Source: Lunularia cruciata (taxonomy: Eukaryota; Streptophyta; Marchantiopsida; Lunulariales; Lunulariaceae). From it: a stretch of DNA of 64,000 bases. The position numbers were made by a program, and so were the translations under genes. The stretch is from positions 2,790,001 to 2,854,000 of the forward strand of contig OX419760.1 of NCBI GenBank assembly GCA_948567375.1, in the 5' to 3' direction. The notes beneath the pieces are model-generated. The model did no database searches. It had not been told where the DNA came from and was given only the letters and a program-made list of their open reading frames with translations. Positions 2,621-52,831 of the stretch are shown here, in pieces. Position 1 is the stretch's first letter; each line of letters opens with the position of its first letter.

Positions 2621-3379
2621 GTCTAGTTGGTAACTCCTCCAATCTAGCTACTACTGCTTGCCATAAATCACTAGTCATTGAGTAGATCCATGCTCCTCAA
2701 CCAAGTCAGCTCCACTATTACCCATCAGTGCTTTAGAAGCAAGAACCCCATCATCCATACTCTCAAAAATTCTAGTAGCCAACCGAAACACTAGAGTTTG
2801 AGTCAACTTCCAATGTAAACATGTCATTGGTTGAGAACAAAGGGAAGAGCATAATCAATTGAGCTATTCCTAACATTAGGTTAGACTCAATTTGTGTAGT
2901 AGTAGGTGGTTGAATAACATGTAGTCTATCATGCTTTCTATCATAACCTACTACACTTGCACTAGGACATCTAGGAGCTATGGATGTCATTTGTAGTGCC
3001 TCAAAGAGTATGAAAGACTAGGGGAATCTTACTAGTCTACCAACCTCTTCTCTGTATATGTCCAACTTCATTAATGCTCCTCTAGGCTCTAGAGCATGTA
3101 TTGCACTTCTAGTCATTGCGGTAGATGCATCTACTTGTATTGCTTTGCAAATAAAGTCCAAGACATCTATATCACTTACATAAGAGATTGAAGCCTCAAC
3201 ACCCAAATCTTATCTCCTATGAGCTCTAGCTATGCTAGCCAATCTCTGCTCCAACTACTCAATCTGAGTAGCCATGGTTGTATCAAAAGCAAGGGCAGGT
3301 ATTGCACTTCTACCAAGTGTGGATCCTCTTCTGCCTTGTCCTCCATGACCTGGAGCTCCTCTACCACTTGCCATAGCAG

Positions 3380-4420
3380 CCCTACCACTCCGTAACTTTG
3401 AGTGAAGGTCAAAGCATTGGTCACTAGTGTGACCAAATCTATGGCAATTATCACATTATCTTTATGTTTGTTATGATACACCAGAGGTATCATAAGGCAC
3501 TCAGAGGCACTCTCTCTTGTGGTGGGATCCACCACAAGTCCAAAAGCAACACCACTTCTCATTGGCTACTATTGCCTTAAAAATGAAGGTAAAGGTCTAG
3601 CTTCACTAGGCCTTCTATTAGTTCCATAGGACCTGGGTTGACCACTTTGTCCTCAAAAGCCAACATGGCATGGTGCACACTATTGCATTCTAGAAGAATT
3701 AATAACTAAAGATGAGGTCTCCCTACCAAATAACCACTCTTCCTCAATGTGCTCAGCCAAAATAAAAATGCTACCAAAGTAGGTGAAGTAGCTTGTAATA
3801 ACATAACATCATGTTCTTTATGTTGCAACCCATTGTCCAAGATCCTATACCTAAATTGGACTGCTTGGGGCCTCAATAACTCTTTGAGTGAAACTTATCA
3901 GCCATCTCATGCAAGTGTATGCCTCACATAGGCTCTCTTTGACCTTATGTTGGAATTCTTGCAAGCTCTTCAGCTTGTCAATCATTACTCCTTGGTAGTT
4001 TTGCCTCAAGCATTGGAGAAACTCCACCATGGTGTTAAATTCCAATTATGCAATACCTCTATAGTGGTACTCCAACTAGTAGTAGCACCATCTCCAACTA
4101 GTGCACCTCTATTAGATCCACCAATGCTACTAGAGCTAGAACTTGTCAATCTACTCCCAGCACCCAAGCTTGAAGTGATAGAGATGTAGTTTAGAGACCA
4201 ATATTGTCTCCATAACGCAATCTGCTCTAAGTGAGCTCTCTTGAACTCATGATAGTAATCCATTGGTGGACCTCCAAGTGCTAAAACAACCACTTCCATG
4301 CCATGAAAGGTGTGAACAAAGTTGGGTTTTGCATCTATCATAGATCACATCAACTATCAAACTCTTGGATGAAATCATCCAACTCAATGGTACCCATTGT
4401 ACCAAAGTAGCACTTGGGGC
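3380..4420 (-). pseudogene. Gag with CCHC zinc knuckle
   Basis: Nucleocapsid-type protein of the methyltransferase gypsy element. A retrotransposon gag domain is visible at about 3,850-4,040 (FLQCLRQNYQGVMIDKL, then LKSLQEFQHKVKESL). An intact zinc knuckle lies at 3414-3455: CDNCHRFGHTSDQC, which fits C-x2-C-x4-H-x4-C. Upstream, MDYYHEFKRAHLEQIALW (around 4,210-4,270) matches the start of this gag type. The frame is broken in several places. Confidence 0.75.
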
Positions 4421-8479: not shown

Positions 8480-9850
8480 ACCACGGAAGCTTCAAACTCT
8501 TGGATGGCTATTTGTGCATTATGGAGATGAAAAAGAGGTTCTCAAGTGGTATCATGAAAGAGATACCTTTTCCAAAGGACTTTATACTTAGTATGTTGTT
8601 GGCGGCCATGTTGAATGTGATGACGTACAAGGATACAATCAACTTCATATTCCTCATGATTGGTTATAAGGACCAAAGGAAGAGGAGGTTGGACACAAGA
8701 GAAAAAGGAAGATGGATTAGATACAAAAGGTTTCAACTTGGAAACCTAAAAGATAGGGTAGATTTTCATAAGACAAGGCAAGGCAAGGCAAGTTGATAAG
8801 CAACAAGAGAAATGATTTGGGTGACATCAAATAGACCTATCCAATTAAAAACAACTCTAGAATCTTGGGTATCAAGTGGGACAAGTAGGTTACTAGAAGA
8901 AAGCATGATCTTATCACCTAGTTGAAAGGTGAGATCACAATGATGTTGGTCCATGTATTGTTTTTGATTATTTTGAGCAACAAAGAGATGAGATTTGTCT
9001 TATTGTAAGGATTGGGATATTGCGGTCAAGAAGGTGAAAGTATGAAGGACATGAGATGGAGGAAGAGCAAGAAAGGAATTTGGAACAAGTGGGTCTTGGC
9101 CAAAATTAAGGAATAAGAGAGAGAATCCAATGCTTACTTGCTTGGAGCTATTGTAAGTGAACTCAATAATTACAAGACATTCATCTTAATTGATATAGTG
9201 AACATTGATAAATGCACAAAGCATATCTTCCGAGGTGTAATTTGCATGTTTGGTTTGTCTATCAATTTGAGGATGATAGGTCATGGACAAAGTAAGCTTG
9301 GTGCCAAGTAGTTGGAAGAATGCTTGCCAACTTTTTTTGATGAATCAAGGATCACAATCAGAGATGAGTACACTAGACATCCCATTATGCTTGAAGACAT
9401 TGTTAAAGTAGATTTGGGCCAATGTTGGAGCATCCTCTATATCAAAGGTTGGTGCCAAATGGATTTATTTACTAAGCTTATCAACAAACACCACAATTTT
9501 TGTGTGACCTTGTTTTGCCTTGGATAAGGAGATGATGAAATCTAAGATCATGTATTCCCATCAAGCAGATGGGATGGGAAGTGGTTGAAGGAGTCCACTT
9601 GGTTTCTAGTTATTGGCATTGTTGCATTGGTAGCTCTCACAAGATTGAACAAAGTCTCAAACCTCTCGAGCCATGTTGGGCCACTACCAATGGTGTTGTA
9701 GGGTACCCAAGGTCTTGTCCACATCTATGTGATCAATGATTAGTAAGTCATGGGCTTCTGGAAGGTGCACAAGTTGTTGATCACCCTTGGCTAGAACATC
9801 AATTCGATTCTCAAGAAATAGAAGGCATTCCTAGAAGAGAAGGTGTTGTA
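8480..9850 (-). pseudogene. Integrase C-terminus and chromodomain, then integrase core
   Basis: On the minus strand the chromodomain region (8,500-8,740) reads EEYEVDCILVRHHIQHGRQ, HTKYKVLWKRY and HDTT. The GPY/F-type integrase C-terminus (8,766-8,954) has HHCDLTFQLGDKIMLSSSNL and FNWIGLFDVTQIISLVAYQL. The core and zinc-binding region follow up to about 9,850. Chromodomains direct integration to marked chromatin in this lineage. Stops and frame changes make it inactive. Gene order confirms the minus orientation. Confidence 0.8.
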
Positions 9851-10283: not shown

Positions 10284-10653
10284 AATTCACACTCCTTAAT
10301 CACAACACCTTCAATTCTTTCCAAACAATCTTGATTGTGATGATTCAGGCTCTCCAAAAAATGGCACTTCATTGTAAAACAACTTTGCCTCAGAATTGTG
10401 TTCTAGCTTTCCACTGAAGGCACAACTTCCTTGATTTAAATTGCTTCATATCAACTTTGTACTGCACTCACAAATGCAAAATACTACCACCACTACAATT
10501 CCTCTCAAATTTGTCAACGAATTGCTTCGATTGCACTTCACTCAAGATCAAACACACAGAATGAAGATCAAAGCTGTGGAATCCAACATCCACAGACCCA
10601 CTGACTTGCACTTCAAATTTCTCCACACACTCACAATTACAAACATAAAGTTG
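10284..10653 (-). repeat. Partial extra copy of the giant-LTR 3' part
   Basis: About 370 bp repeats the sequence at about 10,890-11,210: shared landmarks include cttgattgtgatgattcag, ctccactgaaggcacaac, cacacagaatgaagatcaa and ccaacatccacagac. It lacks both LTR ends and abuts the complete giant LTR at 10,654. It may be a leftover of a second insertion or a local duplication. Confidence 0.75.
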
Positions 10654-13600
10654 TGAGACAACCCGGTAAATATCACTTTTGCGGTAATCGGGTAAGTAAA
10701 GTTCATTCCCACAGAGATACTATTCAGAAATGTCCAAATACAAAGTCAAAAGTCACAATTGCAGTTCTTCTTGGTTTCTTCTTTAATCTCTCAGGTAGAA
10801 ACTACACCCAGAAGAGAGTAACAAGCTCACAATCTTGACAACTTGTCACGAATACACACACACATAATCACAACATAGCAAATTTTGTCCAAACAACTCT
10901 TGATTGTGATGATTCAGATTCTCCCGAAGACGGCACTTCACTGCAAAGCATGATTTTGCCTCAGAATTTTGTTCCACCCCTCCACTGAAGGCACAACTTC
11001 CTTGATCAAAATTGCTTCACATCAACTTCGTGCTGCACTCACAAATGCAAAATACCACCAACACTACAATTCCTCTCAGATCTGTCAAGGCATTGCTCCG
11101 ATGCACTTCACTCAGGATCAAACACACAGAATGAAGATCAAGGCTACAGATTCCAACATCCACAGACACACTGACTTGCTCTTCAAAATTCTCCACACAC
11201 TCACAACTACAAACCCAAAATTGACAATCGGAATTAAGCCTAAGCGACAAGCACTGAGAACAACACTTTGCTTTATCTATCTTCAGAAATATGAATACTG
11301 AATAACATAGGACTGCGAATGCTCCCTTAAGTACTGAAGCAAACGGCAGACTTGCCTACCTAGGCACCGCTTCCTAACATCTTTTCCTACCTACAGATCC
11401 CAAGTGACAATCTATCTCTTCATATTTGCTTCTTCCTATCTCAAAATCGATACTTATCCCGATCCGATGTCTACCTCATCATCGGCTTCCAAACCCGAAT
11501 GATCTTCCTAGTACTTCTCCTTCTTCGGGTATAGCTAATTCCACCAATTCTTTCACTAATTCTACGACTTCTACGCTAGGAACTACAATTGAACTCAGGA
11601 GTGACTTATCTAACTCTCTATCTCTTGACCCACTCTTCTCTACTGTGTCAATTATCAAGTCCGATGACACTTGAATTCCTATTTCTGCGACATCGAGTTT
11701 CTTCTCCACTATCACACTATTGCAAATCTTTTCTAACTCCAAATTGACTAAATCTAGTCTAAGACTAACATTGTTCTATACGTCTAACATTTTCCTATCT
11801 ATGCGTTCTCTCAATTGGATCAACAAGGTGTTCATGTCCACATCCTTGGCTTTTCTCTTCCAAGTTTCCTGCACAAGTAACTTCAACTCATGTAGGCGGG
11901 CTTCTTCCAATCTCCCATCAGCCTCCATGCTTAAGATTGCTCTCAACTTCCTGCAACTTCTCCCACTAATTCCAATGCATATCCTCAAGAGCGCTCTACC
12001 TTCAACTCCTCACGATACATCTTCAACTCGTCTTTGTACTCCGCAGTGAGCATCTTCTTCTCCTCTGCATACTGCATGCTCTACCTTTCCGTGCTCCTGA
12101 CAAGTTCTTGTAATTGTTCCTCTTCTCCTTGCCTGGCTACCAACTCTCTCTGCCATGCTTGATCTTTCAACGCTACACTCTTCTTCAAACTATCCAACTC
12201 CTGCTCCATTACGATGGTCATTGCCTTCAAATGAACATTCTCGATGCGCACATCACTCACTTCCTCCTTCATCTTGCTGAGCCACATCGCCTGTTTCGTT
12301 AATTCTCCGGCTTGCCTCTGCAATTCTTTTTCTTTTACTTTGTAGCTTTCTTGTAACATGGTAAGTGTCTTCTTTGTCAAGCCTTCCTCCCTCCAAAGTC
12401 CTTCCACTTCCTCACTTCTTTGGACTTGTTGCTCCTACAACTCCTTCACTTCACTCATCAAATACATCACTACTTGCAACTCGTTCATCCCCTTCTTGCA
12501 ATCTTGGGGAATTACCTTCCAATGATCCTTCAGTATCTCCAACAAGGGTGTGACCACCTTCGTCAAATACGATATCCCGCCAAAGTTCTCTTCCTCTTCA
12601 TCGCCATCTTTGTCTTGAGTCTTCTCCTCCATCATTGGCTCATTCATCCAAAGTCACGATCTTTGTATCTTCATTGTTTCGGTACTTTCTTCATCTGGGC
12701 CTCTTGAACTCGGCCCTGCGGGATTCTCCTCTTTCTCCTCTGGTCTTGCCTTATTCACCACCATTGCCTAACAAGCCTCACTGACCGCCACCAATTGCTG
12801 AACTTTTGGCTCCCCATTGCTATCGCTATTGCTCCTAGACTCCTCACTTTTTAAGATGAGCTCCTCTTCTTTGGATTCCTCCTCTTGCGACTCGGTTTCT
12901 TCCCCAGACTCCAATCCCGATGATATATCTTTTACAATCTTTGTAGTCTTTAAAATCAGCCGCCGAGTCTTTCTTTGCATGGGAGGTGACCTCGCTTCTT
13001 TGGGTTTGCCATGTTTCTTTGTCTTTGGACTGGTAATTTCTTCGACCTTCCATTGTCCGGTCTTTGAGAAGTATTCATCATTTGCTCAAAGATGCAGCAT
13101 ATACTGACGCTCTTCCTCATCTGCTTCTTGTCGTAAATCCGGATGCATGTGAGACCCCATACAATGACGCTCCTCTTCGGTCAACAAGTTCAATCCAAAG
13201 TAGAAATGTGCTGCAAATGGTGCAAAGTAATGCGGTGGCAAGCCCATTTGCCAATTAACCACCATCTGCCTTGTTCGGTGGTGAAAGCACTTCGCCTAAT
13301 TCACTGGAACTCCTGCAAACATTTGATGGAAGAATACGGCTTGCTGCATGTTCATGTAGGTGGTTTGTTTTGGCTTGAACATGGCCATCATTGCCTCCAC
13401 AATGCTTCTTTGGATTGGATCCTGATAGGACTCCTGCTTGTATCCATTCGTCGTTCTTGGAGCAAAAAATGAGTTGCGGATCTTTGCCATCTCCTCTACA
13501 GCATCACACTTCCAATAAAAGGTGATCCCTGTTGGCTCTCCTGCTTCTCTCCCCAATACTTACCTCCAATCCGACTCAATCCATTGAGCCGGATTGCCTC

Positions 13601-14360
13601 TCTTCCCTTCCACCTTGGGACCCTCTTCACAATTACTGGCAGCAATCTCTACCATCACTCCCAGGAAATTGAAATTCCAATTCCATGCTAAAAATGTAAT
13701 ACAAAGTCTAGTCAAGACTTCGATTCTAGCTACTACATCTACCCTTCGGATTGCAAAACCCCGCACCGCCAGCACATTGGCCACCTTCTTTGCCATGATC
13801 TGTTCTCTTGTTCTACGATGCTAGAAGATGAGAGCCTCTCCTGGACGAGACACTCTAACTCCCTCGGGGTTTTGGAAAATCTCACTCTCGATGGGCTTCC
13901 AAACACGCATTACTGCAGGACAACTACTCAAAGGGATTGGAAATTTACTCGGAACATTCAACTTTTCCCTGTGCAGTTGCAATTTTATATTACCCCGAAT
14001 CGTAGTCATTCTTCAATCAATTTCAACTTCAAATTTCTCTCTTCTGTGCAAACCCCGGTCACTATCAAGACATGCTTCTTTTGCCCCCGCTGTTTCTTGA
14101 AATGTACTTTCTTGCCATGTACCAAGGTTGTTAAATGGTCTTTGTCTCTCTTGCGCCTTCCAACCCAAAGACGGTGATCTTTGGACTTTTTCCGTTGTAC
14201 TTCTCTTTTGAGTACCTCTATCATTGGATCCGATGTCATCTTCTTTGGATGTCCTCTGAAGTTAGTTTCGTCCATTCTTTGTCCGCAATTTGACTTTTAG
14301 TGCTTACTTCTTCTCTTAAACACGACTAAACATAGGAAAACAAAAAATGTGGGTACCACA
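10654..14360 (-). repeat. Giant LTR copy A (3,707 bp), gypsy
   Basis: On the sense (minus) strand it runs from TGTGGTACCCACA (ending at 14,360) to GGGTTGTCTCA (10,654). Its length nearly equals the 3,699-bp 3' LTR at 49,038-52,736, and the order is the same: ~560-bp 5' zone, coiled-coil reading frame, then a ~750-bp zone (10,654-11,409). It follows copy B head to tail with no internal region between them, as if the two LTRs of one element were fused by deletion. It is less decayed than its surroundings, so probably younger. Confidence 0.8.
11410..13796 (-). pseudogene. Coiled-coil protein encoded inside giant LTR copy A
   Basis: Family not recognised. The start is ATG at 13,794-13,796 (MAKKVANVLAVRGFAIRRVD). 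The N-terminal globular part (13,560-13,796) has LCITFLAWNWNFNF and GKRGNPAQWIESDWR. Next (13,296-13,556) comes a block with RNSFFAPRTTNGYKQESYQD and VFFHQMFAGVPVN. An acidic Glu/Ser-rich stretch lies at 12,768-12,980. Long charged heptad-like coiled-coil segments lie at 12,081-12,407 and 11,776-11,988 (ARLHELKLLVQETWKRKAKD), with a Val/Glu-rich tail to 11,479. The total is roughly 800 residues across several frames, with few stops. The same blocks, in the same order, occur in copies B and C. No protease, RT or integrase motif is present. A structural (gag-like) or accessory role is possible; neither is shown. Confidence 0.7.
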
Positions 14361-17300
14361 AGTTGTTACTTGGAATCAAGCTCAAGCAATGAGCACTGCT
14401 TCACAAAAATATTGTTTATTAACAACTCTAAAAACTTGCAAATCCAAAATGACAATGCACCTCTTCATATCTGCCTCTTCAAATCTCAATTTTGTTTCTT
14501 ATCCAATCCGATGTCTACTTCTTCCTTGAATTTCAAACCCAATCCCGAAGTAACTTCACCCACTACTCCTCTATCCTCGGGTTTCACAACTCCTAATTCC
14601 TCTACCAAATCTAACAATTCTCTTTCCTGATCATTCCACTAGTAGGTAATCTATCTAACTCCTTATCTCCCGACCCACTCTTCTCTAATGTCTCCAATGG
14701 TAACTCTAAAGACTTCTGCACTCACACTTCATCTACTTCGGGTTTTGCTCTGACATCCTTCCGAAGTTTTTCTATCTCTAATTTGACTAAGTCTTATCTG
14801 ATTGTGATATTGTCTTCTACTTCCAATATCTCCCTATCTACACGAGTTCTTAGATTGATTAGTAAAGCATTCAAGTCTTTGTCCTTTGCATTTCTCCTCC
14901 TCATATCCTGCACCAACAACTTCAACTTGTGCAGCCTCATCTCTTTGATGCGCACACTGGCCTCTGTACTTAGCATTGCATTCATCTTGATCACAATCTC
15001 TTTTAATGGCTCCAATCTCATTTTCCTCTCTTGTTCTCAATCTACAAGCCAATCTTCTCTGTACATTGCCAATTTTGCTTCAAACTCGGCTTTCACAGCT
15101 TCCTTTTCCTTCTCTTTCTACACAATCTTTTCCTCCTAATTGCGAAGTAGCTCTCTCAACCGTTCTTCTTCTCTATACCTCACTGTCAACTCTTGTTGCC
15201 ACAGCTTCTTCTTCTCCTCTACACTCTCCATTACTCTATTGAGCTCTTGTTCTTTCTCTACTACTCTCGCCATAGCATGGATAATTTCTAGTCTTGAATC
15301 AGCAAATTGTTGCTTCAAGATTTCATATTCAGCAAGTTGTCTTTCCTTTGCTATGACATTCTACTCTATTAGTTCCTCCCGATTCCTTGCTTCTCTCCTC
15401 AAATTCTCCAACACTTGATTCTGCACTACTACATCTACTCGTAGTACTTCCTTTTCCTCCTCACCTTGGATTATACTCTTCTTCAATTCTGAGTTCTCTT
15501 CTTCTAATCGTGCTAACACCTACAACACAGTCTTTACCTCCGGACACTTGACTACATCTCCTTCTTCTTGTGCTCTAACTTTACTAATAATGGGCACACA
15601 ACCTCCCGCAAGTACTCCATTCCGCCACTCGGAGTTACCTCAACTTGCGGAGTGATGTCCTTCTTCATCTCTTCTTCACTCGACACTTGCCTTTTGAGCC
15701 ACAGTCACCGTATAGGAATGGATGCTTCACTCCCCAAACTTTCATCCTCCTCTTCTCTTACCTTACTTGGCCCTGCTCCACACTTTGCCTTTTGCCTAGA
15801 ACAAACTCCTCCTTGAATGGTAACTTTCCTTTCTTCCTGCTCTGGCACTTTGTCTTCCAACTTCGAGTTACCTTTCTCCTCCATCTCCATCATGGCTTTC
15901 TCTTCCTCAGGTACTGATGTCATCTCTCCTCCATTTTTGCTATCACTACTTGTGTCTCCACTCTGTAGTGTGAGCTCGGGTTCTTCATCTCTTTCCGAGT
16001 CTTTGGACTTGCACTCGGCTTTGCCTTCCAATTCTTCCTCCAACAATGCGATTACTACCATACATTTCCTCGGGTTTACTCTTCTAGCCTTTAGAGGTCT
16101 TACTTTCTTGATGTCTTCTTCTTCTCCTTGTCAACTCCTCTTCTTTGACTTTGGAGTACTCATGTCTAACTGCACACTCTTCCCTGTCTACGCGTAGTAC
16201 TCATCGCTGCTCTTGATCTGAAGAATGTATTGTTGCTCCTCCGCATCAACATCCTTTCTTAAGTCGGGATGGAAATGCGACACCATCCTATTGTGCTCTG
16301 CCACATTGAGCAAGTTTAGCTCCATATAGAAATGAGCTGCAAATGGCACAATGTAATACGGATGTGATTTATCCTACAAATTCCATACCATCTGTCTTGT
16401 TCTCCCATGAAAACACTTCGCCCAATTAATAGGCTCTCCTGCAAACATCTTATGGAAGAACATTGCTTGGTGCTTCATCACATAAGTCTTTCTCTCTGGC
16501 TTCAAGATTGCCATTAGAGCACTCACAATCCCTTGCTTGATAGGATCCTTGTAACTCTCTACTTTGTAACCATTCTTTGTGTGCTTTAAAGAGAAAGCAT
16601 CTCTCACCTCATGCTACTTCTCCCTTCCCTAAGAACGTGGCACCATGCTCCACGCTTGTTTCTCTTCTGAGTACTAACCTCCAATCCGACTCTATCCAGC
16701 AAGCCGGATTACCTCTCTTCCCCTCTTCCTCGGGGCCATTGAGACATCTACTCTTGATGATCTCAGTCATGAACCTTGGAAAGCTTACATTCCAGTTCCA
16801 CGCCAAGAATGTGATCCAAAGTCTGCTCAAGACTTCAATTCTTACGATCACATCTAACCTCCAAATCGCATGATTTCTCATTGCAAATTTGGAGTTCTTC
16901 TTCCCTCCTTCCATCTTTCTCTCTTCCACTCTGGGCTAGGGACTATTCTTCCTACTGATTCTCATATGAGCTCTCTCAAATTCTTCTCTACACACCAATA
17001 CGTCCTCAACTCTACTCCCTTCCTACAATCTCCTACAGGCTGACTTCTTAACGGCAAAGGAAAATTGCTTGTTATCACTTCATCTTTAGCCTGATTTTTT
17101 TAGAGTCCCGCCTTCTTCATCTTTCTTCAATTTGAGTTTCTACCAAGAAATCACACCTCCTGCATGCTCCAATCATTGTCAAGTGTCCTTCACGTGTATG
17201 ACCGCCATTTTTGAACTGTCCTTTCTTGAATGTATCGCCTCAAAGGAAAGTTCTTATATTGTCCTTGCCTTGCATTGAGCACCCCCGCTGCAAAGACTTC

Positions 17301-17486
17301 TTACTTTGGGTTGTATGCTGACAGGGCAATTCCAAGTACTTTTCCTTATGACCTAAAGCCATGTTATCTTGGGTTTCATCCCGAGGACACTTTTCTTTGC
17401 CTTCTTTGGCCATATAGGCGCAATTTGACTTCTCTATACACTTCTTCTTCCACATTTCAAAAAATACAAAAAATGTGGGTACCACA
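14361..17486 (-). repeat. Giant LTR copy B, truncated at its 3' end (3,126 bp)
   Basis: The sense start TGTGGTACCCACA ends at 17,486, flush against the chromovirus RT sequence. Only the first ~94 bp of the 3' zone remain (14,361-14,454, starting TGTCATTTTGGAT in sense); copy A follows directly. Together with copy A this looks like a 5' LTR and 3' LTR with everything between deleted. Confidence 0.78.
14455..16929 (-). pseudogene. Coiled-coil protein encoded inside giant LTR copy B
   Basis: Paralogue of the protein in copy A. The 16,609-16,929 segment has LSRLWITFLAWNWNVSF and GKRGNPACWIESDWRLVL. The 16,374-16,607 segment has KHTKNGYKVESYKDPIKQGI and MFFHKMFAGEPINWAKCF. The 15,705-16,061 segment is acidic (ALLEEELEGKAECKSK, DTSSDSKNGGEM). 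Coiled coil covers 14,794-15,318 (RLHKLKLLVQDMRRRNAKDK). Stops and frame changes interrupt it. The function is unknown; conservation of block order in three copies suggests that this protein is a normal part of the element. Confidence 0.68.
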
Positions 17487-20821: not shown

Positions 20822-21486
20822 TATGTTGATTTCTTCCTTAATTATGAGCAAGATCCATTTGTTCTAGATTCTCTTCTTTCTCCTTAGCCATCTAAGATCT
20901 TGCATTTTTCCATCTTCTTATCTATGTTATCCAAATTCCTATACCAAGTAAAGTCTCATTTTCTTGTTGCTCAAAGTTAGCAAAAGCAATATGTTGATAA
21001 AAATTATTGTAATCATACCTTTCAACTCAATTAAGGTCATGATTTCTTCCAATAACCTTCCAACCCCATTTGACACCCAAGTCCATAAAACCTTGTCCAA
21101 CAATCATTGACCTTGTCCATAAAACCTTGTCCAACACTCATTGACCTTATCCAACACTCATTGATAAATTAGGAGTAGTTTCATATCAATGGAACTTTAC
21201 TCATCTAATTAGGAGTAATTTTATGGACTTGGGTGTCAAGTGGGGGTGGAAGGTTATTGGAAGAAATCATGACCTTATCATTGAGTTGAAAGGTTTGATT
21301 ACAATAATGTTTATCAATATATTGCTTTTGCTAACTTTGAGCAACAAGAAAATGAGACTTTGCTTGGTGTAGGGATTTGGATAACATAGATAAGAAGATT
21401 CAAAAATGCAAGATCTTAGATGGCTAAGGAGCAAGAAGAGAATCTAGAACAAATGGATCTTGCCCATAATTAAGGAAGAAGGGAGA
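20822..21486. repeat. Long inverted repeat (foldback), arms about 280 bp
   Basis: The left arm (about 20,822-21,103, plus) encodes decayed integrase C-terminus (VMISSNNLP, FDTQVHK). The right arm (about 21,213-21,486) is its reverse complement: compare catgatttcttccaataacc at 21,038 with ggttattggaagaaatcatg at 21,250. The spacer is about 110 bp and contains tandem ccttgtccaacactcattga units. If transcribed it would form a long hairpin. Confidence 0.85.
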
Positions 21487-27270: not shown

Positions 27271-28120
27271 TTCCTCTCATCACGACAGCAATTACGACAT
27301 TGTCAATTGACTCCAAGGTCCAAAATGAGTTTGGTCATCTCTACAACAAGATCTCTTCTTCCAAATAGTACATGGCCATCTTAAAACATGCAACAAGGAG
27401 TACAACACCTTCTCCTTCAAGGAAGGCCTTCTATTCCACAAGGACTGGATCTATGTTCCAGCCAAAGGTGGTCTCCAACTTGTATGCCTTCAAGAAGCCC
27501 ATGATTTACCAATAGTTGGGTATATGGGTGTAGACAAGACCTTGGGTACCCTCCAATGCCAATGGTGGTGGCCCAACATGACATGAGATGTTTGAGAGTT
27601 TGTCCAATTGTGTGAGAGCTGCCAATGTAACAAGGCCAACAACCAAAAGCTAAGTGGACTCCTTCAACCACTCCTCATTCCATCCATTCAATGGGAACAT
27701 GTGAGCTTGGATCTCATCACATCCTTGCCCCAAACAAAGCAAGGACACATAGCAATTGTGGTGTTTGTGGATAAGCTCAGTAAGCAAATCCACTTGGCAC
27801 CAACCATTGATACAATAGATGCTCCAACCTTAGCACAAATCTACTTCGACAATGTCTTCAAGCATCATAAGATGCCACGTATACTCATCTCCGACCGTGA
27901 TCCTTGATTCACCGAGAAGTTTTGGCAAGCACTCTTCCAAATACTCGACACCAAGCTTGCTTTGTCCACGGCCTATCATCCTCAAATTGATGGACAAACC
28001 AATTGTGCAAATTGTACCTTGGAGGATATGTTGCATGCCTTTGTCAATGTCTACCATACCAATTGGAATTTATGTCTTTGCAGTTGTAGAATTTGCCTAC
28101 AATAATTCTAAATAGGCAAG
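27271..28120 (+). pseudogene. Integrase, catalytic Glu lost
   Basis: The zinc-binding half ends with CESCQCNK (27,608-27,631). The core reads WEHVSLDLITSLPQTKQGHI, VVFVDKLSKQIHLAP, then RILISDRDP (both catalytic Asp present) and YHPQIDGQTNCAN. The last block is normally GQTERVN, so the third catalytic residue (Glu) is Asn here. Frame breaks and stops are few (for example at 27,906). Confidence 0.88.
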
Positions 28121-40000: not shown

Positions 40001-42199
40001 CTGTTGCGATGTCAGACCAGGTCGTTCATGAGGAAGTTGTAATCAGGTTCCCGTAAATATGTTGTGTTCTTTGCAGATTTCCGAAGCGTCCGACATAGTT
40101 CTGTGGACGGTTCACTTGGTTTGTAACGCGTGTTCTAGGTGTAATTAATGAAGCGACTTTTTTAAGAAATTGGTCCTACAATGGAAGGAGTAATTATGTC
40201 AGCTGTTCCTCATAGCTATAGAAGCCGTTGTGGTTGAAAGTTTCTGGCTCTCAAACTCAAGACTTAATGCCGTACGGATGTGTGTTGTCCTCTTAGACTA
40301 GGAGCTCGAGTCGCTCAATTCCTGCAAGATGCCTGTAGAGGTCAAGATCATACGCCTGTGCTGGACAAGGGACCTCCGAAATCCATCACTGTCGAGGACT
40401 CGTTCAGAAACTGTCGAACTTTGCAACAAGCTGAGGTATATAAACTCCCCACTAAAAGTCATCTTAGCAACCATTTGTCTTAGCAGCATTAGCAACCATT
40501 TCCTCTTTGGGCAATATCCACTCCAGCTAATATAGTTTCCACGTTCCGCAGGGAATTCTGCGCGTTTTGGCACCAGATCTGGTAAGGCGTTTAGATGAAG
40601 ATAAAGAGGAAACTGGACGAAGGCCCAGATCTTTTACTGTCAAGTGGCGGGTCCACGGGACGAAGTGGTGGGTAAGCTCTCACACCACGGTATTGGTGTT
40701 TTCCCCCCCGGACCTTAAGCATGGTGACAAACGTTTTAATGTGGTTTTTGCTTATCGGACCAGTCAAATCCTGTGACCATGAAAGGACATTGATTCTATC
40801 GGCTGTTTGATCTTACAGGAACTTCGTAAGTGTTTCAACTGAGATGCCTGTGGAGCTGCTTCTAGCCTCCGTTCCGCTGGAGAAGCGGGCTGCAGTTGCA
40901 GTTGATGTTGCATCAAAGCTTCTCTTGAGAAACGTTGGCCAGTCCTTTCATCTTGTTGTACTGAACATAGGCGCAACAAACTTTTCAAGTGAATCTACAA
41001 TCAGTAGACATGGTGTTCGTGATATTCGTTCCTTCCTACAAGGTCCAGGGAATTCCTCAGGGAAAGAAGTGAAGTTCATCAGTAAAAGGGATGCACGGGC
41101 CCGTCGGGAGAGCTTCAAGCCTATGGTCGAACTTTCTGCTGGAACAAAGCGTGGACTTAATCTACTCCTTCGAGCAGATAGGAGAACCTCCTCAGATTTA
41201 GATATCTTTGGCAACGGCCAACTTGTCGAGGACTCTCATCTGTCAAGCAGTGAAGGTAAATTTGTCAAAGTGTTTCTTATCAGCGTCGTCTTACTGTGCT
41301 GTTTCCCTATCTCGGAGCTAGTAGTGAGAGAAGATGCAAGTGACAGAGCAAGACCAAGTTCATGCGCAGTCTCATGTCATTAAATGCCCGTTGCAGATGA
41401 AGATGGGGGCGAGTTGGGTAATCGGTTGAGATCTGTAGTCCGATCAAATTCTTCTGCACAAGGCGAAGATGTGGAGTCAAGTTCTCCAGTTGGTGTACTT
41501 TGTCGACCTCAAAATCATCAGTGGACTCATGCACGACAAACAAAATCTTCAGATGACTCATCCTTGGCAATGACAGATCCAGTTGTTTGCTCTGTATCAC
41601 AAAATGCTCTCACTGGAGATTGGACCGATTCTAGTTATCACTTACTACGAAATCGAGGAACGTTGAGCAGGGGAAGAGAAGTAAATTTTCACTCCGGCGA
41701 TGGTCACAATGTATTCCAGAAGGTGAATACCATATCTGCTGGCGATGTGGAAGGGAATAGTGAAGAGTCTGATGGTTATAGTGTCCGAGACTCTCAAAGT
41801 GTTCTGACAGCGTCTGATAATCCCGTCATCAACTTTCCTGAACTCAATTATGCCAGAGAAGATATTCCAAATGATTTTACAAAGCACTCTGCAACAGAGA
41901 CCCAAAGTTTTCCTCACCAGAAACCTGAAAGGCACTTCGAGGAGCAGAAGGCCTGGATAATGTGTGAGGATTGTCAAGTCCCGGTTGAAGACACCGATAG
42001 AGGGAGGCAAGAACATTCTGATTTGCACTTCGCTTTGAGTTTAGACCGAGAAACCCGACGGTCCCAAATACCAACAGTTGACCTCAACAAGGCCGGTTCC
42101 TTTCACAAGAGACAGTCCACCTCTAGTTCAACAAGCTCCTATAGGAAGAAAAGTAAGACACGAAATGGTACCCTAGATGGCTATGTACTCCGTGAGTGA
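37098..42199 (+). CDS. POLI: DNA polymerase iota-like Y-family translesion polymerase (first exon missing)
   Basis: Exons: 37098-37175, 37356-37438, 37602-37703, 37937-38231, 39632-39736, 39865-39965, 40297-40435, 40552-40671, 40844-41255, 41397-42199. They sum to 2,238 nt, in frame throughout, 745 residues plus stop; human iota is similar in length. Blocks: DIDCFYAQ (first catalytic Asp), TCNYVARGLGVPKM, SLILVNGEDLTPYR, GLDEGAVDIT (second Asp-Glu pair), LLVGSQVVAEMR, KMLAKLASSLNKPNKQTCLL, IPGVG (helix-hairpin-helix), RLGARVAQFLQ, GPPKSITVEDSF, PRSFTVKWRVHG and MPVELLL (little finger). These match iota rather than eta, kappa or REV1. The tail holds a UBZ3 finger and a PCNA-box-like end. Intron 1 appears to be GC-AG. 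The acceptor before 40,844 is chosen by frame; cttacag at 40,812-40,818 looks stronger but would shift the frame. A GTGAGT at 42,192 could extend the gene. Confidence 0.87.
38232..39631 (+). other. Long intron 4 of the polymerase gene with an internal direct repeat
   Basis: 1.4 kb, starting gtgagt and ending gttcgtgcag, whereas the other introns are about 115-330 bp. Two ~85-bp direct copies lie at 38,693-38,785 and 39,391-39,471, sharing ttaatgagttctggatc, gaacggcttctg and atccagtacatcttga. A tract with two gtttaaac palindromes is at 38,903-38,930. No coding sequence recognised. Confidence 0.7.
41957..42046 (+). other. UBZ3-type ubiquitin-binding zinc finger (in the polymerase tail)
   Basis: MCEDCQVPV...RQEHSDLHFALSL: Cys at 41,963 and 41,972, His at 42,014 and 42,026, giving C-x2-C-x13-H-x3-H. 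The DLHFALSL helix matches the polymerase eta UBZ3 (DYHFALxL). Human iota uses helical UBM motifs instead. It would bind ubiquitinated PCNA at stalled forks. The far C-terminus TRNGTLDGYVL resembles a weak PCNA-interaction box. Confidence 0.78.
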
Positions 42200-46643: not shown

Positions 46644-47161
46644 TGTAATACCATTAACGAGACTTTATTGTCTAGAGATAAAAATTGGTTTTGGTAATAT
46701 CTTGAAGTATGTTGTATATGATGGTCTAAATAGATCAAATAAAAATGTTACAAAAAGAGTACTTTCACTAATAGAGCACATGTTGAAAATACCTAAAAAA
46801 TTCAAAGTCAATTTTGAAGGCTTAAATGGATAAATTAGGCCTCAAAAAATGAAAAATTACTTCCTTCCTACGAGTGAAGGTGTCACCTTTTCCCCTCTAT
46901 GTTTTTCTTGTTGAGAGCTTCCAATGGTACCTCATCCATATTGTTTTGAGCTTCCTACAAGAAGATTCCTAAAGATTCCTTTTGGTAAAACTTGTTTAAA
47001 CAACTAGATAAGACAAGTGTTGACATGCCACCAATCATGAAACTAATCTAAAGGTGGAACCCACTAGCATGTCACAAATTCATGTATCGGATCTAAGTTT
47101 GGAGATCTCTTTGAGTGGATCTTTTTTATTATATAATAAAGACAAGGTGCTCCTTTGGGGC
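46644..47161 (-). repeat. Inverted LTR of the ~600-bp family, first part
   Basis: Reverse complement of 44,476-44,997: TGTAATACCATTA at the left end, then tatgatggtctaa, aaaaagagtactt and ctcctttggggc at the right end. It is interrupted at 47,161 by the giant-LTR gypsy insertion and continues at 52,737-52,831. Confidence 0.88.
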
Positions 47162-47700
47162 TGTAGTACCCACATTTTCTGGTTTTTTTTTGTTTTAAGG
47201 AAGAAGTGTGTTGGTAAAGCCAAAGAAGGGCTAAATGGAGAAGAAACACAAAGAATCATATGTTTTAGTGTAAACCTAAAGTCAACCTTGAGTCAAAGTT
47301 AGAAGGACTTGGGTCAGATGGATGGAAGTTTAAAGCCAAAGATAGAGGATGTCACATCAGGATGTGCAACCTAGTCCAAAGAACTTGTAACAACTTTTTC
47401 TCAAGTTTTGCCACTTAAGAAAGTATGTAGGAAGAAAGTGACTACATCAAGACCAAGATGATCTTGAAAGTGACATGAAACCAACCCATAGAATTGGTGG
47501 GTAAACATAAAATGATTGAAGAATGACCAATCAGCAAAGGACTATAAAATTGAGATTTTGACAAGGAAGCGATGCAATGTCTAGAAGGTATCTTATTCCT
47601 ATTCAAAGTCAAACCAATGGAATGCAAACTACAAGTATGCAAGAGGAGTGGGTTAGAGTCTTGGGCTTGATCTTTTATAAGCAAAGAGTGAGGAAGTACA
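47162..47700 (+). repeat. 5' LTR, only the first 539 bp
   Basis: TGTAGTACCCACATTTTCTGG... matches 49,038-49,554 throughout (gaagaagtg.gttggtaaagcc, gccaaagatagagga, aagtgacatgaaaccaaccca). Homology stops at about 47,705, where integrase-coding sequence starts, so a deletion removed the rest of the LTR plus gag, protease and RT. Confidence 0.85.
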
Positions 47701-49024
47701 TGATGTGGCCGGTATGCAGCTGAATATCACTATTTGCATACTTGCCATTGTCCTAAGGGATTGGACCCAAAGCAGAGGGCAGTTTTCCTTAGGAAGATGG
47801 GACTGTACCAACTAAAACACAACATTTTAATTGAAATAGATGAAGACAAAGTACTTTGGAGATGCTTGGAGGCATACAAAGTTGGAAGAGTAATCGAGTC
47901 CTTACACTCAAAAGCATTGAGAGGACACTATGCCTTGAAGAATACTATAAAGAAGATTCTTTCATTGGGTTACTGGTAGGCCTATGGTGTATAAGGACAC
48001 TCATGCCCATATTCAAAGTTATGATGCTTGTCAAAGAACAAGAAAGCTGATGGCTACTTCTTAGTGGCCTTTGAGACCAATTTTGCCATTAGCCCCATTT
48101 GAGAAATGGGGAATTGATTTGTGGGTCCAATTCAACCAATGACCTAATTCACGAGGAAGAGGTACATCTTGGTGTGCACCAATTATGCTACCAAGATGGT
48201 TGAAGCCGAGGTTACTTGGAGAGATGATGCGGAAATAATCATAGAATTTTTATTTTGAAACATCATTTCATGTTACTGATGTCCTCTAGAATTGGTCAAC
48301 GATTGGGAGACCTATTTTTTGAACTCCATGGTGGAAGCATTAACCAAGTACTTCCAGATTAAACATTGGAAGACAACTCCTTATAATCCAAAACCAAATG
48401 GACTAATGGAGAAGGCCAATGGATTGTTGTGTAAAATTTTGAACAAGGTGACGGTCAATTATGCCTATGATTGGGACACAAAGTTACATGTAGCTTTGTG
48501 GGCATATTAAACAACTAAAAATATTACCACCAAAAAAACTCTATAGTTCTTGACATACGGCTTGCATCTCATACTATTAGTTGAATTTGAAGTACCTTCA
48601 TATCAGATCCTTTGTGAGGAATGATTGTAAGAGGATGAAAGTAAGGATCTTTGGATACATCAACTGATGTGGTTAGAAGAGAGAAAAAATAATGCAACAA
48701 AAACTATGAAGGAAGTACAAGAGCAATGGAAAGTCATGCACAATAAGTAAATTAAGCTTGTTGTTGTTTAGGAGGGCAATTTGGTGTTGTTGTATGACAA
48801 CAACACCAAACTGCCAAATATTCTTTTCCAGGCAAGCTGCACTTAAGGTGGATGGGGCCATATCATGCGATGCACATCTATGACAATAGCTCTATTCAAC
48901 TTGCAAATCTAGAGGGCAATCCCTTTGCCACTCAAGTGAATGGGTGGAGAGTTCAAAATTATTGGACCATGTACTCAAACCTATATAAAGAACCCAAAGT
49001 TGGTGTTTTTTGGGACGTTCACAT
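47701..49024 (+). pseudogene. Integrase of the giant-LTR gypsy element
   Basis: 47,734-47,979 covers the zinc-binding region. The core reads RYILVCTNYATKMVEAE (48,150-48,210), ELVNDWETYFLNSMVEALTK and KTTPYNPKPNGLMEKANGLL (48,292-48,440), then AYDWDTKLHVALWAY. The C-terminus at 48,880-48,995 reads YDNSSIQLANLEGNPFATQV and NGWRVQNYWTMYSNLY. The blocks match non-chromodomain gypsy integrases (FVNDxGTHF, PYxPxxNGLxEKxN). Many stops. Confidence 0.82.
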
Positions 49025-49037
49025 TTGAGAGGAGGTA
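49025..49037 (+). other. Polypurine tract
   Basis: ttgagaggaggta, directly before the LTR start TGTGGTACCC at 49,038. It marks the plus-strand primer and so the true 5' edge of the 3' LTR. Confidence 0.7.
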
Positions 49038-49556
49038 TGTGGTACCCACATCTTTCATTTTTTTAAATTTTTAAGGAAGAAGTGCGTTGGTAAAGCCAAA
49101 GAAGAGCTAAACGGGGAAGAAACATGAAGAATCATGTAAACCCAAAGTCCCTCTGGTCAAAGTTAAAAGGACTCGGGTCAGACGGACAGAAGTATGAAGC
49201 CAAAGATAGAGGACGTCACATTGGGATGCACAACCCAATTCAAAGAACCTACAACAAATCTTCCTTGGATTTTGCCAATCAAGAAAGTATGTGCTAAGAA
49301 AGTGACTAAGATGATCTTGAAAGTGATAGGAAACCAACCCATAAAATTGGTGGGTAAACAGAGAAATGACTGAAGAATGACCAATCACCAAAGGAACATG
49401 AAATTGAGATTTTGATGAGGAAGCACTGCAATGTCTAGAAGGTATCCTATTCCTATTTAAAGTTGACCTAAAGGAATGCAAACTACGAGTACGCAAGAGG
49501 AGTAGGTTAGAGTCTTAGGTTTGATCTTTCATAAGTAGAGAGTGAGGAAGCACACG

Positions 49557-51985
49557 ATGGCCCCAAAGGGAAACACGCAGAGTGCGGTGAGGGGTCTTGC
49601 AATTTGTTGATTAGATGTAGTGGCAAGGATCAAAGTCTTGTCCAGACTTTGCATCACATTTTTGGCTTGGAACTAGAAGTTAAGCTTTCCAAGGTTTATG
49701 GCAGAAACAGCTGCCAGTAATTGTAAGGATGGACCCAAGCACAAGGGGAAGAGAGGAAATCCGGCCCAATGGACTGAGTCAGATTAGAGATTAGTCTGAA
49801 GTTTGATGCTTCGGAAGAAACTGCCAAGATGAGGAATTCCTTTAGTAGACCTCACACCAAGAATGGGTACAAGGTGGATAGTTACAAGGATCCAGTGCAA
49901 AGAGGGATTGTGAGCACAATGAGGGCTATGTTCAAGCCAGAGCAAACCACCTATGTAACAATGCAACACGCAATATTCTTTCATCAAATGTTTGCAAGAG
50001 AAGCAATGGACTGGATGAGGTGTTTGCACCAATGAGTAGGGCAGATGATCACAAGTTGGAGAATGAATATGTTGCCTCACTACTTTATACCCTTCACAGC
50101 CCACTTCTACTTTGGGCTGAACCTGTTGAGCTTAGAGGAGAGAAGACGGATGGTGTACTATTTTCACCCCAATTTACAAAGAGAAGCAGATGGGGATGAA
50201 TGACATTACATCAAGCGGGTTTGTGAAGGTGCTGACTATTACTTGAAGAGTAGAAAGGAGAAGATAGTGGCAATGTAAATCCCCATGCCAAGAAAGAGAA
50301 GTAAACCCAAAGGACAAATCATGCCAGTGCAGCCCCAAAAGATATGAAGACTCAATCCAAAGCCCACACCGGTGGAAGTGAAGGAATCAACCTTGGAGGA
50401 AGAATCAGAAGGAGAAATGGAGTTGATGGAAGAAGTCTTGGGAGCAAAAGAAGAGTTTACACTACGGAGCAAAGAGTCAAGCAGTGGTAGTGAAGGAGAG
50501 GCCAAAGTCCAGCAATTGGGAGAAGGGATTGCTAGAGGAGAAGAATATGAGTTCCATGAGGCAATAGACCGCATGGAAGGAGAAGAAAAGCCATGTCTAG
50601 AATTGCAAGCAGACAAGCTTGAAGATGAACGTATAGGAGAGGGCACCTTGGTCTTTCCAAGGGTGCTAAGAACAAAAAGAAGTGCTCACATGGTTGCAAT
50701 CAGACCAAGTAAAGTTGAGAACAAAGAAGAGAGCTTGGAGTGTGAAACATTGAAGATACAAAGATCACGTCTACAAGGTAAGGTGCCAATTGAGGAAATG
50801 CTTGCCAGTGATAATGACAAAAGAGACAATGAAGGAAGAGATGGTGGAGTTGAGTACCTATCAAAGATTGTTTGTCTTGTGTTGGTGCTTCTGTAGCAAA
50901 AGAAATCAAAGTTGAGGAGCCATCATCCGGAAGCAAGGGATGAGTTGGAGGTAGTGAAGAAATGGAGTGAGGAGACCTTGGAGCTAAGGAGTAAGCTAAC
51001 CCAAAGAGAGAAGGAAGCAGAAGAACTTTGGGTTGAAGAAGTTCTTTGGAGGCAAAGCTCGGATGCCTTGCAAGAGAATTTCATGAAATGCAGCAAAGAA
51101 TTAGAGGAGCAGAAGGTGTTGGTCAAGAACGTGACATAGGAAGTTGTTGATGTATGAGTTAAATTCATACACTCAAAGGCAATTGCAGCAGTGATGGAAC
51201 AAGAGCTAGAGAGTTTGAAGAAGAGAACGGTAGAGAAGGACAAAGCCTGGCCACAAGAATTGGTAAAACTTACTCGAAAGGAAGAATGATTGTTGAGGTT
51301 GCTTCAAGGAGTTGAAGGTCAGTTGGTCCAATATGGACAAGAGAAAGAGGCACTAAAGGCTAAATTCAAGAACAAATTGATGATGTATCGGAACAAAGAA
51401 GAAGCAAAGAGAAGTAAGGAAAAAGTAGTTCCAAGTGTGGAGTTAGATGCAATAGGAGAAGTCATGAAGGAGTTAAAGGTGATGTTGAGTACAAATTAGG
51501 AAAATTAGAAGAAGCAAGATTCAAGATGCCTGAGTTGAAGCTAATTGTGCAGGAAACTCAAAAGAGGAAGGCAAAGGACGTAGATATGAATCATTTGATG
51601 ATTTGCTTGAGAGATAGAGTAGATAGGAAGATGATAGAAGTAGGAGACAATGTTTTTCTTAGATTAGATTTTTTAGATCAGATTTAGATAGAGTTCATAG
51701 TGAGATGAAGAAGAATAAAAAGTCCAAAGTTGTAGAAGTAGGAGTGCAGGTGTCTTTGGGTGAGTTACCTAAGACATTAAAGAAGAGTGGGTTGTAAGAT
51801 AAAGAAGTGTATAGCTTACCCATGTTTTCAATTTTAGTTTAGAGTGAAGAAGTAGAAGAGGTAGTAGTAGTGTTAGAGAGACCCAAAGAAGGAGAAGTGA
51901 TAGGAGTAACATCGGCTTTGGAAACCAAAGTTGAGGTTGACATTGGATTCAATTAGAAACAGATTTGAGATATGAAGAGGTGGTT
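49557..51985 (+). pseudogene. Coiled-coil protein encoded in U3 of the giant LTR, copy C
   Basis: The ATG at 49,557 (MAPKGNTQSAVRGLAIC) lines up with the copy A start. Further blocks: LSRLCITFLAWN, GKRGNPAQWTESD, RNSFSRPHTKNGYKVDSYKD (49,829-50,035), AIFFHQMFAREAMDWMRC, an acidic segment 50,372-50,620 (EEESEGEMELMEEVLGAKEE), and coiled coil 50,912-51,139 and 51,290-51,499 (LTQREKEAEELWVEEVLW, EVMKELKVML). It is interrupted by stops. It lies wholly upstream of the LTR TATA at 52,062, so it would need its own promoter; tatttaa at 49,454 is a weak candidate. No homologue recognised. Confidence 0.7.
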
Positions 51986-52061
51986 TGTCATTTTGGATCT
52001 GCAGGTTGGTAAAGTTATTATAGAATGGTATTTTTGTTAGTAACTATCAAAGTGCTCTGCC

Positions 52062-52069
52062 TATATAAA
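52062..52069 (+). promoter_or_regulatory. TATA box of the giant LTR
   Basis: TATATAAA about 3,025 bp into the LTR, in ctctgcctatataaaggaag. It puts the U3/R boundary near 52,090, leaving about 650 bp for R-U5 and about 3 kb for U3. Confidence 0.6.
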
Positions 52070-52736
52070 GGAAGCATTTGTAGTGTTATGTTGTTCAATA
52101 TTTATATTTTTGAAGTTGAGTAAAGCAAAGTGTTGTAACTTAGTTCTCATCATTTCAGCTTAATTTTGAGTATCAATCCTATGTGTGTTTTTGTGAGTGT
52201 TTGGAGAATTTTGAAGTGTAAATCAGTGAGCTTGTTGGATGTTGGATTCCATAGTTTTGATTTCATTTTTTGTGTTTTATCCTAAGTGGACAACAATTGA
52301 AGCAATGCCTTGATAGATCCGTGAGGAATTGTAGTGTTGGTAGTATTTTACATTGAGAGAGCATTATGCAGTTGATGCAAAGCAATTTTGATCAAGGAAG
52401 TTGTGCCTTCAGTGGAAGCGTGGAACAAAATTCTAAGTTGAAGTCCTTTTGTAGTGAAGTAGCCTTTTTCAAAAGAATCTGAATCATCACAATCAAAGTT
52501 GGTTTGGAAAGATTTGATGGTATTGTGATTATGGAGTGTTAATTTGTGATGAGATTGTGATTAGTGCTTGTTACCCTCTTCTAGCTGTGGTTTCTAACTG
52601 AGAGATTAAAGACACAATCAAGAAGGACTGAATTGTTACTATTTATTTTGTATTTGACTATCTTTTACTTGTATCTCTATGGGAACAAACTTTACTTATT
52701 GATTACCACAAAAGTGATACTTGTCGGGTTATCAAA

Positions 52737-52831
52737 GGGGCATTGGAGTATTGAGGTATGAACCTTGTGTTTCTCTTATGTTTCTTCTCTTATGTTTCTC
52801 TTGGAGGTTCTCCTATCCTTGGAACATTAAA
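52737..52831 (-). repeat. Inverted LTR of the ~600-bp family, remaining part
   Basis: ggggcattggagtattga...ccttggaacattaa is the reverse complement of about 44,401-44,486. It completes the LTR cut at 47,161. The flanks caagg (46,639) and gaagt (52,832) are only partly alike, so its own target duplication is uncertain. Confidence 0.85.

Follow-up and report, generated by a model that had tools for sequence, protein, structure and literature searches.

The retrotransposon copy at 47162-52736

The window analyzed here is a 64,000-nucleotide stretch of the Lunularia cruciata genome (C10:2790001-2854000 of the searched assembly, 566 Mb). RbcL from the plastid contig of this assembly had land plants as its best named hits among the 120 matches listed (for example Fissidens 93%, Allium 92%, Marchantia paleacea 92% and Selaginella 89%), in keeping with a land plant. 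Sequence features and genome comparison identified positions 47162-52736 as an old, internally deleted copy of a Ty3/gypsy element on the forward strand, flanked on either side by the same 5 bp, GGGGC (47157-47161 and 52737-52741), a perfect target site duplication (TSD). The element opens with a remnant of the 5' LTR (47162-47705), which corresponds to approximately the first 522 bp of the LTR, is 81% identical to 49038-49559 and contains TATAAAA at 47543-47549. The internal-region remnant (47720-49026) is a decayed integrase, recognized from genomic matches and open pieces. All 40 scored genomic candidates for 47720-49037 (window included) matched at 79-100%; an Integrase_H2C2 match was weak (E 0.046, under the Pfam cut-off), and the remainder was presumptively assigned to integrase by eye. 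A polypurine tract (PPT, 49027-49035) lies directly 5' of a complete 3' LTR of 3,699 bp (49038-52736), whose first bases at 49038, right behind the tract, are TGTGGTACCC. This order of PPT and 3' LTR is repeated at L035 and next to copy S3. The TSD and 12 other listed end-to-end or nearly end-to-end copies agree with these LTR ends, and the 3' LTR of the preliminary description, beginning after a PPT and ending at a target duplication, was thus confirmed. Most of the 5' LTR and of the internal region has been lost, and the interior that is left is the integrase remnant.

Three further features lie within the 3' LTR, all on the forward strand. The position of an upstream TATA motif (P1, 49395-49408), located by alignment of copies, is decayed in the window. 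It is followed by a broken copy of a gene of about 810 codons from its ATG (49557-51985), and then by a downstream TATA box (P2, TATATAAA; 52062-52069), the presumed start region of the gag-pol transcript. The TATA box had been noted from the sequence before; it is present, and its position is conserved among aligned copies. The long reading frame described at 49557-51985 needs to be restated: it is not open in the window, where the longest in-frame open piece is 182 aa and the ORF listing contains no ORF of at least 200 aa within these limits, and it is instead the decayed form of a frame that other genomic copies keep open.

The deletion in the window element (47690-47725) fuses the 5' LTR to integrase at the position of the start codon of the LTR gene. 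A second copy (L018 near 2575) breaks near the same LTR position (~522). Splicing was considered as the origin of both truncated LTRs and rejected; similar purine-rich sequence surrounds the L018 junction, which has no GT-AG signature and was therefore read as a deletion.

Two more copies of the same block order had been proposed at 10654-17486. LTRs of the family are indeed found there on the reverse strand, where one is interrupted by a second, complete LTR inserted into it, as placed by alignment and TSD. The interrupted LTR (14361-17486) belongs to another subfamily; read from 17486, it breaks off at 14361, resumes at 10653 and can be traced to about 10280. The nested unit (10654-14360) is a complete solo LTR of a third subfamily with the TSD CAACT at 14361-14365 and 10649-10653. 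Elsewhere in the window, a second repeat family occupies 8000-30300 in many direct and inverted copies of 72-95% identity, for example the arms 9174-9837 and 27415-28078, or 20831-21031 and 21280-21480. The sole listed window ORF of at least 200 aa (41384-42199; 271 aa) matched a ubiquitin-binding zinc finger at 24.4 bits, against a Pfam cut-off of 25.6 bits.

LTR ends in young and old copies

A young subfamily was found through L018, with 38 candidates scored of 12,645. Its LTR is ~3.78 kb, its internal region ~6.17 kb and the whole element ~13.7 kb. Each of the 38 (query included) aligned over 3,733 or more of the 3,779 bp, with 89-100% identity. Five same-strand LTR pairs had starts 9.94-9.96 kb apart; a sixth (C8) was 19.7 kb apart, and the TSD check covered the five 9.94-9.96-kb pairs. 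We checked the flanks of these pairs and of the top five single copies by rank, taking the left flank of E5 from L022. Perfect 5-bp TSDs were present at 4 of 5 pairs (CCTCC, CCTAT, AGCAT and CACCC), and pair E2, among the five checked, had none. Two of the five single copies were solo LTRs with perfect TSDs (GGCTT, CCACA) and one had 4 of 5 bases; the remaining two adjoined a PPT (a 3' LTR) and a primer binding site (PBS; a 5' LTR), respectively. In the one pair compared, E5, the two LTRs were 99% identical. A PBS, which we take to be of tRNA-Asp type, was found directly behind a 5' LTR, and a PPT directly ahead of a 3' LTR. Full-length elements elsewhere in the genome thus have the same LTR ends with the frame inside, as had been proposed from the window. 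The paired LTRs and the TSDs confirm both LTR ends and place the reading frame within the LTR, upstream of the TATA box presumed to serve gag-pol.

With regard to classification, direct LTR pairs of the form TG...CA with a 5-bp TSD, as expected of Ty3/gypsy, were found in 4 of 5 pairs and in the window element. The gag, read in the young subfamily, gave Pfam matches in the L018 interior to Retrotrans_gag (E 2.6e-13) and Ty3_capsid (1.1e-9), and it presumably contains CCHC motifs, which were seen by eye. In the old element L038, pieces that we take, from motifs identified by eye, to be RT-like lie upstream of integrase-like ones.

At C8 (L018:2034-8036), partial and complete LTRs of the family are nested in one another, and L022 has the array a second time, ~164 kb away. 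With 99% identity between them, the copies in L018 and L022 probably derive from one segmental duplication.

The LTR unit of the window element also recurs genome-wide in older copies. With the window 3' LTR as genome query, 38 candidates were scored of 17,520 from the first look, and 68 matches were listed. Thirteen of the 68 listed matches (window included) start at base 1-3 and reach base 3681 or further, and the other 12 near-full-length ones are 75-81% identical to the window 3' LTR. For ten old copies, approximately 9 kb of flank on each side contained further matches that were either short or of 65-79% identity, and no clear LTR partner. This would fit a 3.7-kb unit that is not an LTR at all, and instead a separate transposon lying beside gypsy remnants. 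Such an origin is barely conceivable: it is contradicted by direct pairs at fixed spacing, by PBS and PPT at the inner edges and by one TSD around the whole, and the solo copies fit recombination between LTRs. L007 and L009 adjoin PBS-like sequence, and the old element C1 has an LTR on each side of a ~6.25-kb interior, 82-85% identical over their alignable parts, with PBS and PPT at the inner LTR edges and a 5' LTR without its first ~1.3 kb. Among five solitary old copies inspected by eye, one had a perfect TSD (CCCTA, L005) and four had 3 or 4 of 5 bases.

The reading frame and its selection

To follow the frame in the young subfamily, we used a 270-aa C-terminal piece as query and scored 142 places of 20,687 from the first look. 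No stop was present in the matched part at 66 of the 142 scored places, and 14 contained an uninterrupted frame of 856-879 codons from stop to stop (878 or 879 in 11 of the 14). These intact frames are known from the search table, the LTR copies that were actually read being broken; the old copies read had open stretches of up to 336 aa. The ATG homologous to window position 49557 leaves about 810 codons of the 878-codon stop-to-stop frame. A frameshift in L018 and L022 was considered as programmed recoding and rejected; it is absent from 14 of 16 other aligned copies and was consequently taken as decay.

The N-terminal part of the predicted protein, about 250 aa, is conserved and nearly gap-free between subfamilies. 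The middle has a basic patch and a gap-rich linker that is acidic (net charge -16 over 191 aa); a coiled-coil-like part and a conserved C-terminal region follow. The coiled coil of the preliminary description is moderately supported by these sequences. In one copy, heptad periodicity over 104 aa was matched by 4 of 1000 shuffles, whereas of ten sub-windows of at most 60 aa three fell under 50 of 1000 shuffles and the others were without such periodicity.

Selection was analyzed in an alignment of seventeen LTR copies. The fragment L013b, L009 (a near-duplicate of L007), the L022 copy (a near-duplicate of L018Y) and further partial flank copies were left out. The most distant subfamilies share 54-64% DNA identity, and three deeply diverged subfamilies have the same layout. 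Between lineages, differences in the frame were in excess at third codon positions (p 2e-2 to 2e-16 depending on pair and region), with and without removal of likely methylation-decay sites; flanking LTR DNA before and after the frame showed no such excess, with no p under 0.09. Within subfamilies, pairs of dead copies had no codon excess in the N-terminal part (covered in four of five pairs), and the five pairs had a weak excess in the rest of the frame (p 0.33 to 0.005). Such a faint codon signal is expected from decay after insertion, and these pairs add little independent support. NG86 dN/dS, a rough measure here with dS near saturation between subfamilies and stop-containing codons dropped, was 0.12-0.20 among L018Y, L019 and WA, 0.17-0.33 in nine other between-lineage pairs and 0.37-0.51 in four dead-copy pairs of one subfamily. 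Indels pointed in the same direction. Of 18 in the frame that are shared by at least 4 copies, relative to L018Y, 17 had a length divisible by three, and the eighteenth was an event of the reference copy L018Y itself; the corresponding counts were 1 of 12 for the LTR before the frame and 1 of 16 for the LTR behind it. Among private indels of the frame, 23 of 102 had a length divisible by three. All three tests, codon phase, dN/dS and indels, exceed what chance would give and reveal the purifying selection across copies on which the original proposal depended. Selection while the family transposed, followed by free decay after insertion, is the pattern of a working gene.

These data also bear on the possibility that the frame is a captured piece of a host gene, open by chance or in a young master copy. 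Plant retrotransposons do transduce gene pieces, according to the available part of one review of the field (PMC7264820). Nevertheless, this explanation is very unlikely for the LTR frame: its presence in subfamilies 54-64% identical, a dN/dS well below 1 and shared indels that keep the frame all contradict it.

The part of the LTR behind the gene (LTR ~3000-3779; window 52000-52736) is 65-95% identical between subfamilies in 150-bp windows, and the gene 40-75% in the same comparison. This part is the most conserved overall, yet without codon signal, as expected under strong constraint (as for the RNA leader used in replication) or under exchange between subfamilies.

As for homologues, none had been recognized before, and our searches agree within the length limit of the pieces used. 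No Pfam family exceeded its cut-off in scans of pieces of the LTR protein (8 pieces at E up to 10 and 3 at 1, with HMMER filters dropping most matches above 0.1), and none of the open pieces scanned matched the TRP28, plant mobile domain or Athila ORF-1 models. Pfam also gave no backing to a likeness to plant transposon-protein domains that had seemed visible by eye. One PDB search by sequence returned nothing and the best match of another (E 0.21) was not credited. Queries of 336 and 354 aa found no match among 5.8 billion proteins, plant proteins included, in a search that sees proteins of 0.55-1.75 times the query length with exact shared words and would miss a full-length relative of ~810 aa. 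With no homologue found, the intact frame would encode a previously unrecognized protein.

Promoters, known systems and possible function

Two TATA motifs keep their positions in otherwise diverged DNA. The upstream one, ~160 nt before the ATG, reads TATAA in 13 of the 15 aligned copies covering the site and is absent from the window copy. The downstream one, about 80-120 nt after the stop, reads TA[TC][TA]TAA in 15 of the 17 copies aligned; a nested insertion cuts off one of the two exceptions. The gene is inside the LTR and conserved; to judge from the position of the TATA box it would lie upstream of the RNA start, and it is from the downstream motif that we infer its placement in U3. Some transcripts may begin at the upstream TATA, before the frame, and this second motif suggests that each LTR is a promoter-gene cassette.

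The family resembles the Athila/Tat/Ogre (OTA) elements with eORF-3'F in its gypsy gag-pol, 5-bp TSD, very large LTR and sense ORF on the 3' side. The presumed tRNA-Asp type of the PBS is a further likeness. PBS type and large LTR are only consistent with membership in the OTA non-chromovirus clade. According to the accessible portion of a survey (PMC6317226), the LTRs of large plant non-chromovirus elements can reach about 5 kb, several tRNAs serve as primers, tRNA-Asp among them, and the 5' or 3' part of the element may hold extra ORFs of heterogeneous kinds. A second source places additional ORFs in the internal region, and phrases such as "within the LTR" are absent from its main text (PMC7264820). 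The extra ORFs of OTA elements are thus internal or in the 5' or 3' part in the available portions of these papers (PMC6317226, PMC7264820, PMC11963269), whereas here the ORF is inside the LTR. A gene in this place is present twice per element and once per solo LTR. By contrast with eORF-3'F, a sense ORF between pol and the 3' LTR, the LTR here lies directly behind the post-integrase PPT.

An ordinary extra ORF (eORF-3'F, "env-like" or other) might have been engulfed by the LTR after priming shifted to the purine tract behind pol, and its expression might depend on the 3' end of full-length or spliced RNA, as for other 3' extra ORFs, and not on a separate promoter. In agreement with such a shift, the LTR begins straight after integrase and PPT with no spacer, at the place where sense extra ORFs sit in other elements, as far as the accessible text describes them (PMC7264820), and a short purine-rich stretch behind the gene stop in many copies is a candidate older PPT. 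However, the genomic matches obtained with LTR-derived queries included no element with the gene outside the LTR, and the conserved TATA upstream of the gene favors separate transcription. We consider this account, taken whole, somewhat unlikely; as a statement of origin it is compatible with our best explanation.

That explanation, which we hold to be fairly probable, is a Ty3/gypsy family whose ~3.7-kb LTR contains a real gene of ~810 codons upstream of the presumed gag-pol promoter, with a promoter of its own and a role as regulator that we infer. There would be two transcripts: gag-pol would be read from the genomic RNA, and the LTR gene from a short RNA. Having its own promoter, as the conserved upstream TATA suggests, the gene could be expressed from any LTR, solo LTRs included. 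Because it lies within the LTR, it would be doubled at every new insertion and would survive LTR-LTR recombination. Its product would regulate the element in trans, most likely by binding or opening the chromatin of the element itself, as an anti-silencing or transactivating factor.

A structural or replicative role was also considered, in which the LTR protein would be a Gag-like, particle-associated or movement-type coiled-coil protein and not a regulator. The coiled-coil-like and conserved C-terminal regions would suit such a protein. On the other hand, the LTR protein matches neither Gag nor any other Pfam family, and a gag with a capsid-like domain and presumed CCHC motifs is already encoded by the element. 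Since gag lies in the interior of the young subfamily, and RT and integrase pieces in that of an old element, these functions do not call for the LTR protein. We regard a structural function as unlikely.

Three known systems are relevant to the regulator reading. The LTR of MMTV is exceptionally long and its 3' LTR encodes Sag, making this accessory protein within an unusually long LTR the nearest layout analogue in the accessible part of the source (PMC3026287). Unlike the present family, MMTV is an animal retrovirus with a 1.3-kb LTR, and the likeness is one of layout, not of protein sequence. VANDAL is a DNA transposon, unlike the element with the LTR gene. Its Arabidopsis VANC protein is described, in the portion of the source available, as a trans-acting anti-silencing factor encoded by a plant transposable element, and so provides a precedent, by analogy and not by sequence, for a plant element factor that counters silencing (PMC5735166). 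Retand, a non-chromovirus gypsy element, has its TRP28 ORFs close to the 3' LTR as an extra gene, and their author proposed a regulatory role for them; in the available text they are antisense and in the internal region, and the LTR protein here is without such a Pfam match (PMC11963269). Judging from architecture and analogy, our best guess is that the LTR protein is a regulator, possibly an anti-silencing one as VANC is for VANDAL.

Searches of open-access papers with exact phrases found no plant LTR with a conserved protein gene. As far as these searches show, there is no plant precedent for a Ty3/gypsy LTR that contains an accessory gene under selection. A stronger form of the proposal is tentative and, in our opinion, rather doubtful: each LTR would be a self-contained cassette of promoter, gene and the element's poly(A), the solo LTRs would form a dispersed reservoir of expressed anti-silencing or transactivating genes, and this would be, by the searches made, the first accessory gene in a plant LTR, one kept across several deep subfamilies.

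The usual view of LTRs is that they are regulatory DNA, and that solo LTRs are inert scars. A conserved LTR gene means that every insertion brings two gene copies and that the gene outlives the element when its LTRs recombine, so that a lone leftover LTR could in principle produce the LTR protein. Repeat annotation that masks LTRs hides a protein family of this kind. With the Lunularia elements, it could be examined in a natural system whether retrotransposons maintain regulators of their own that act in trans, a question left by the extra ORFs of plant elements.
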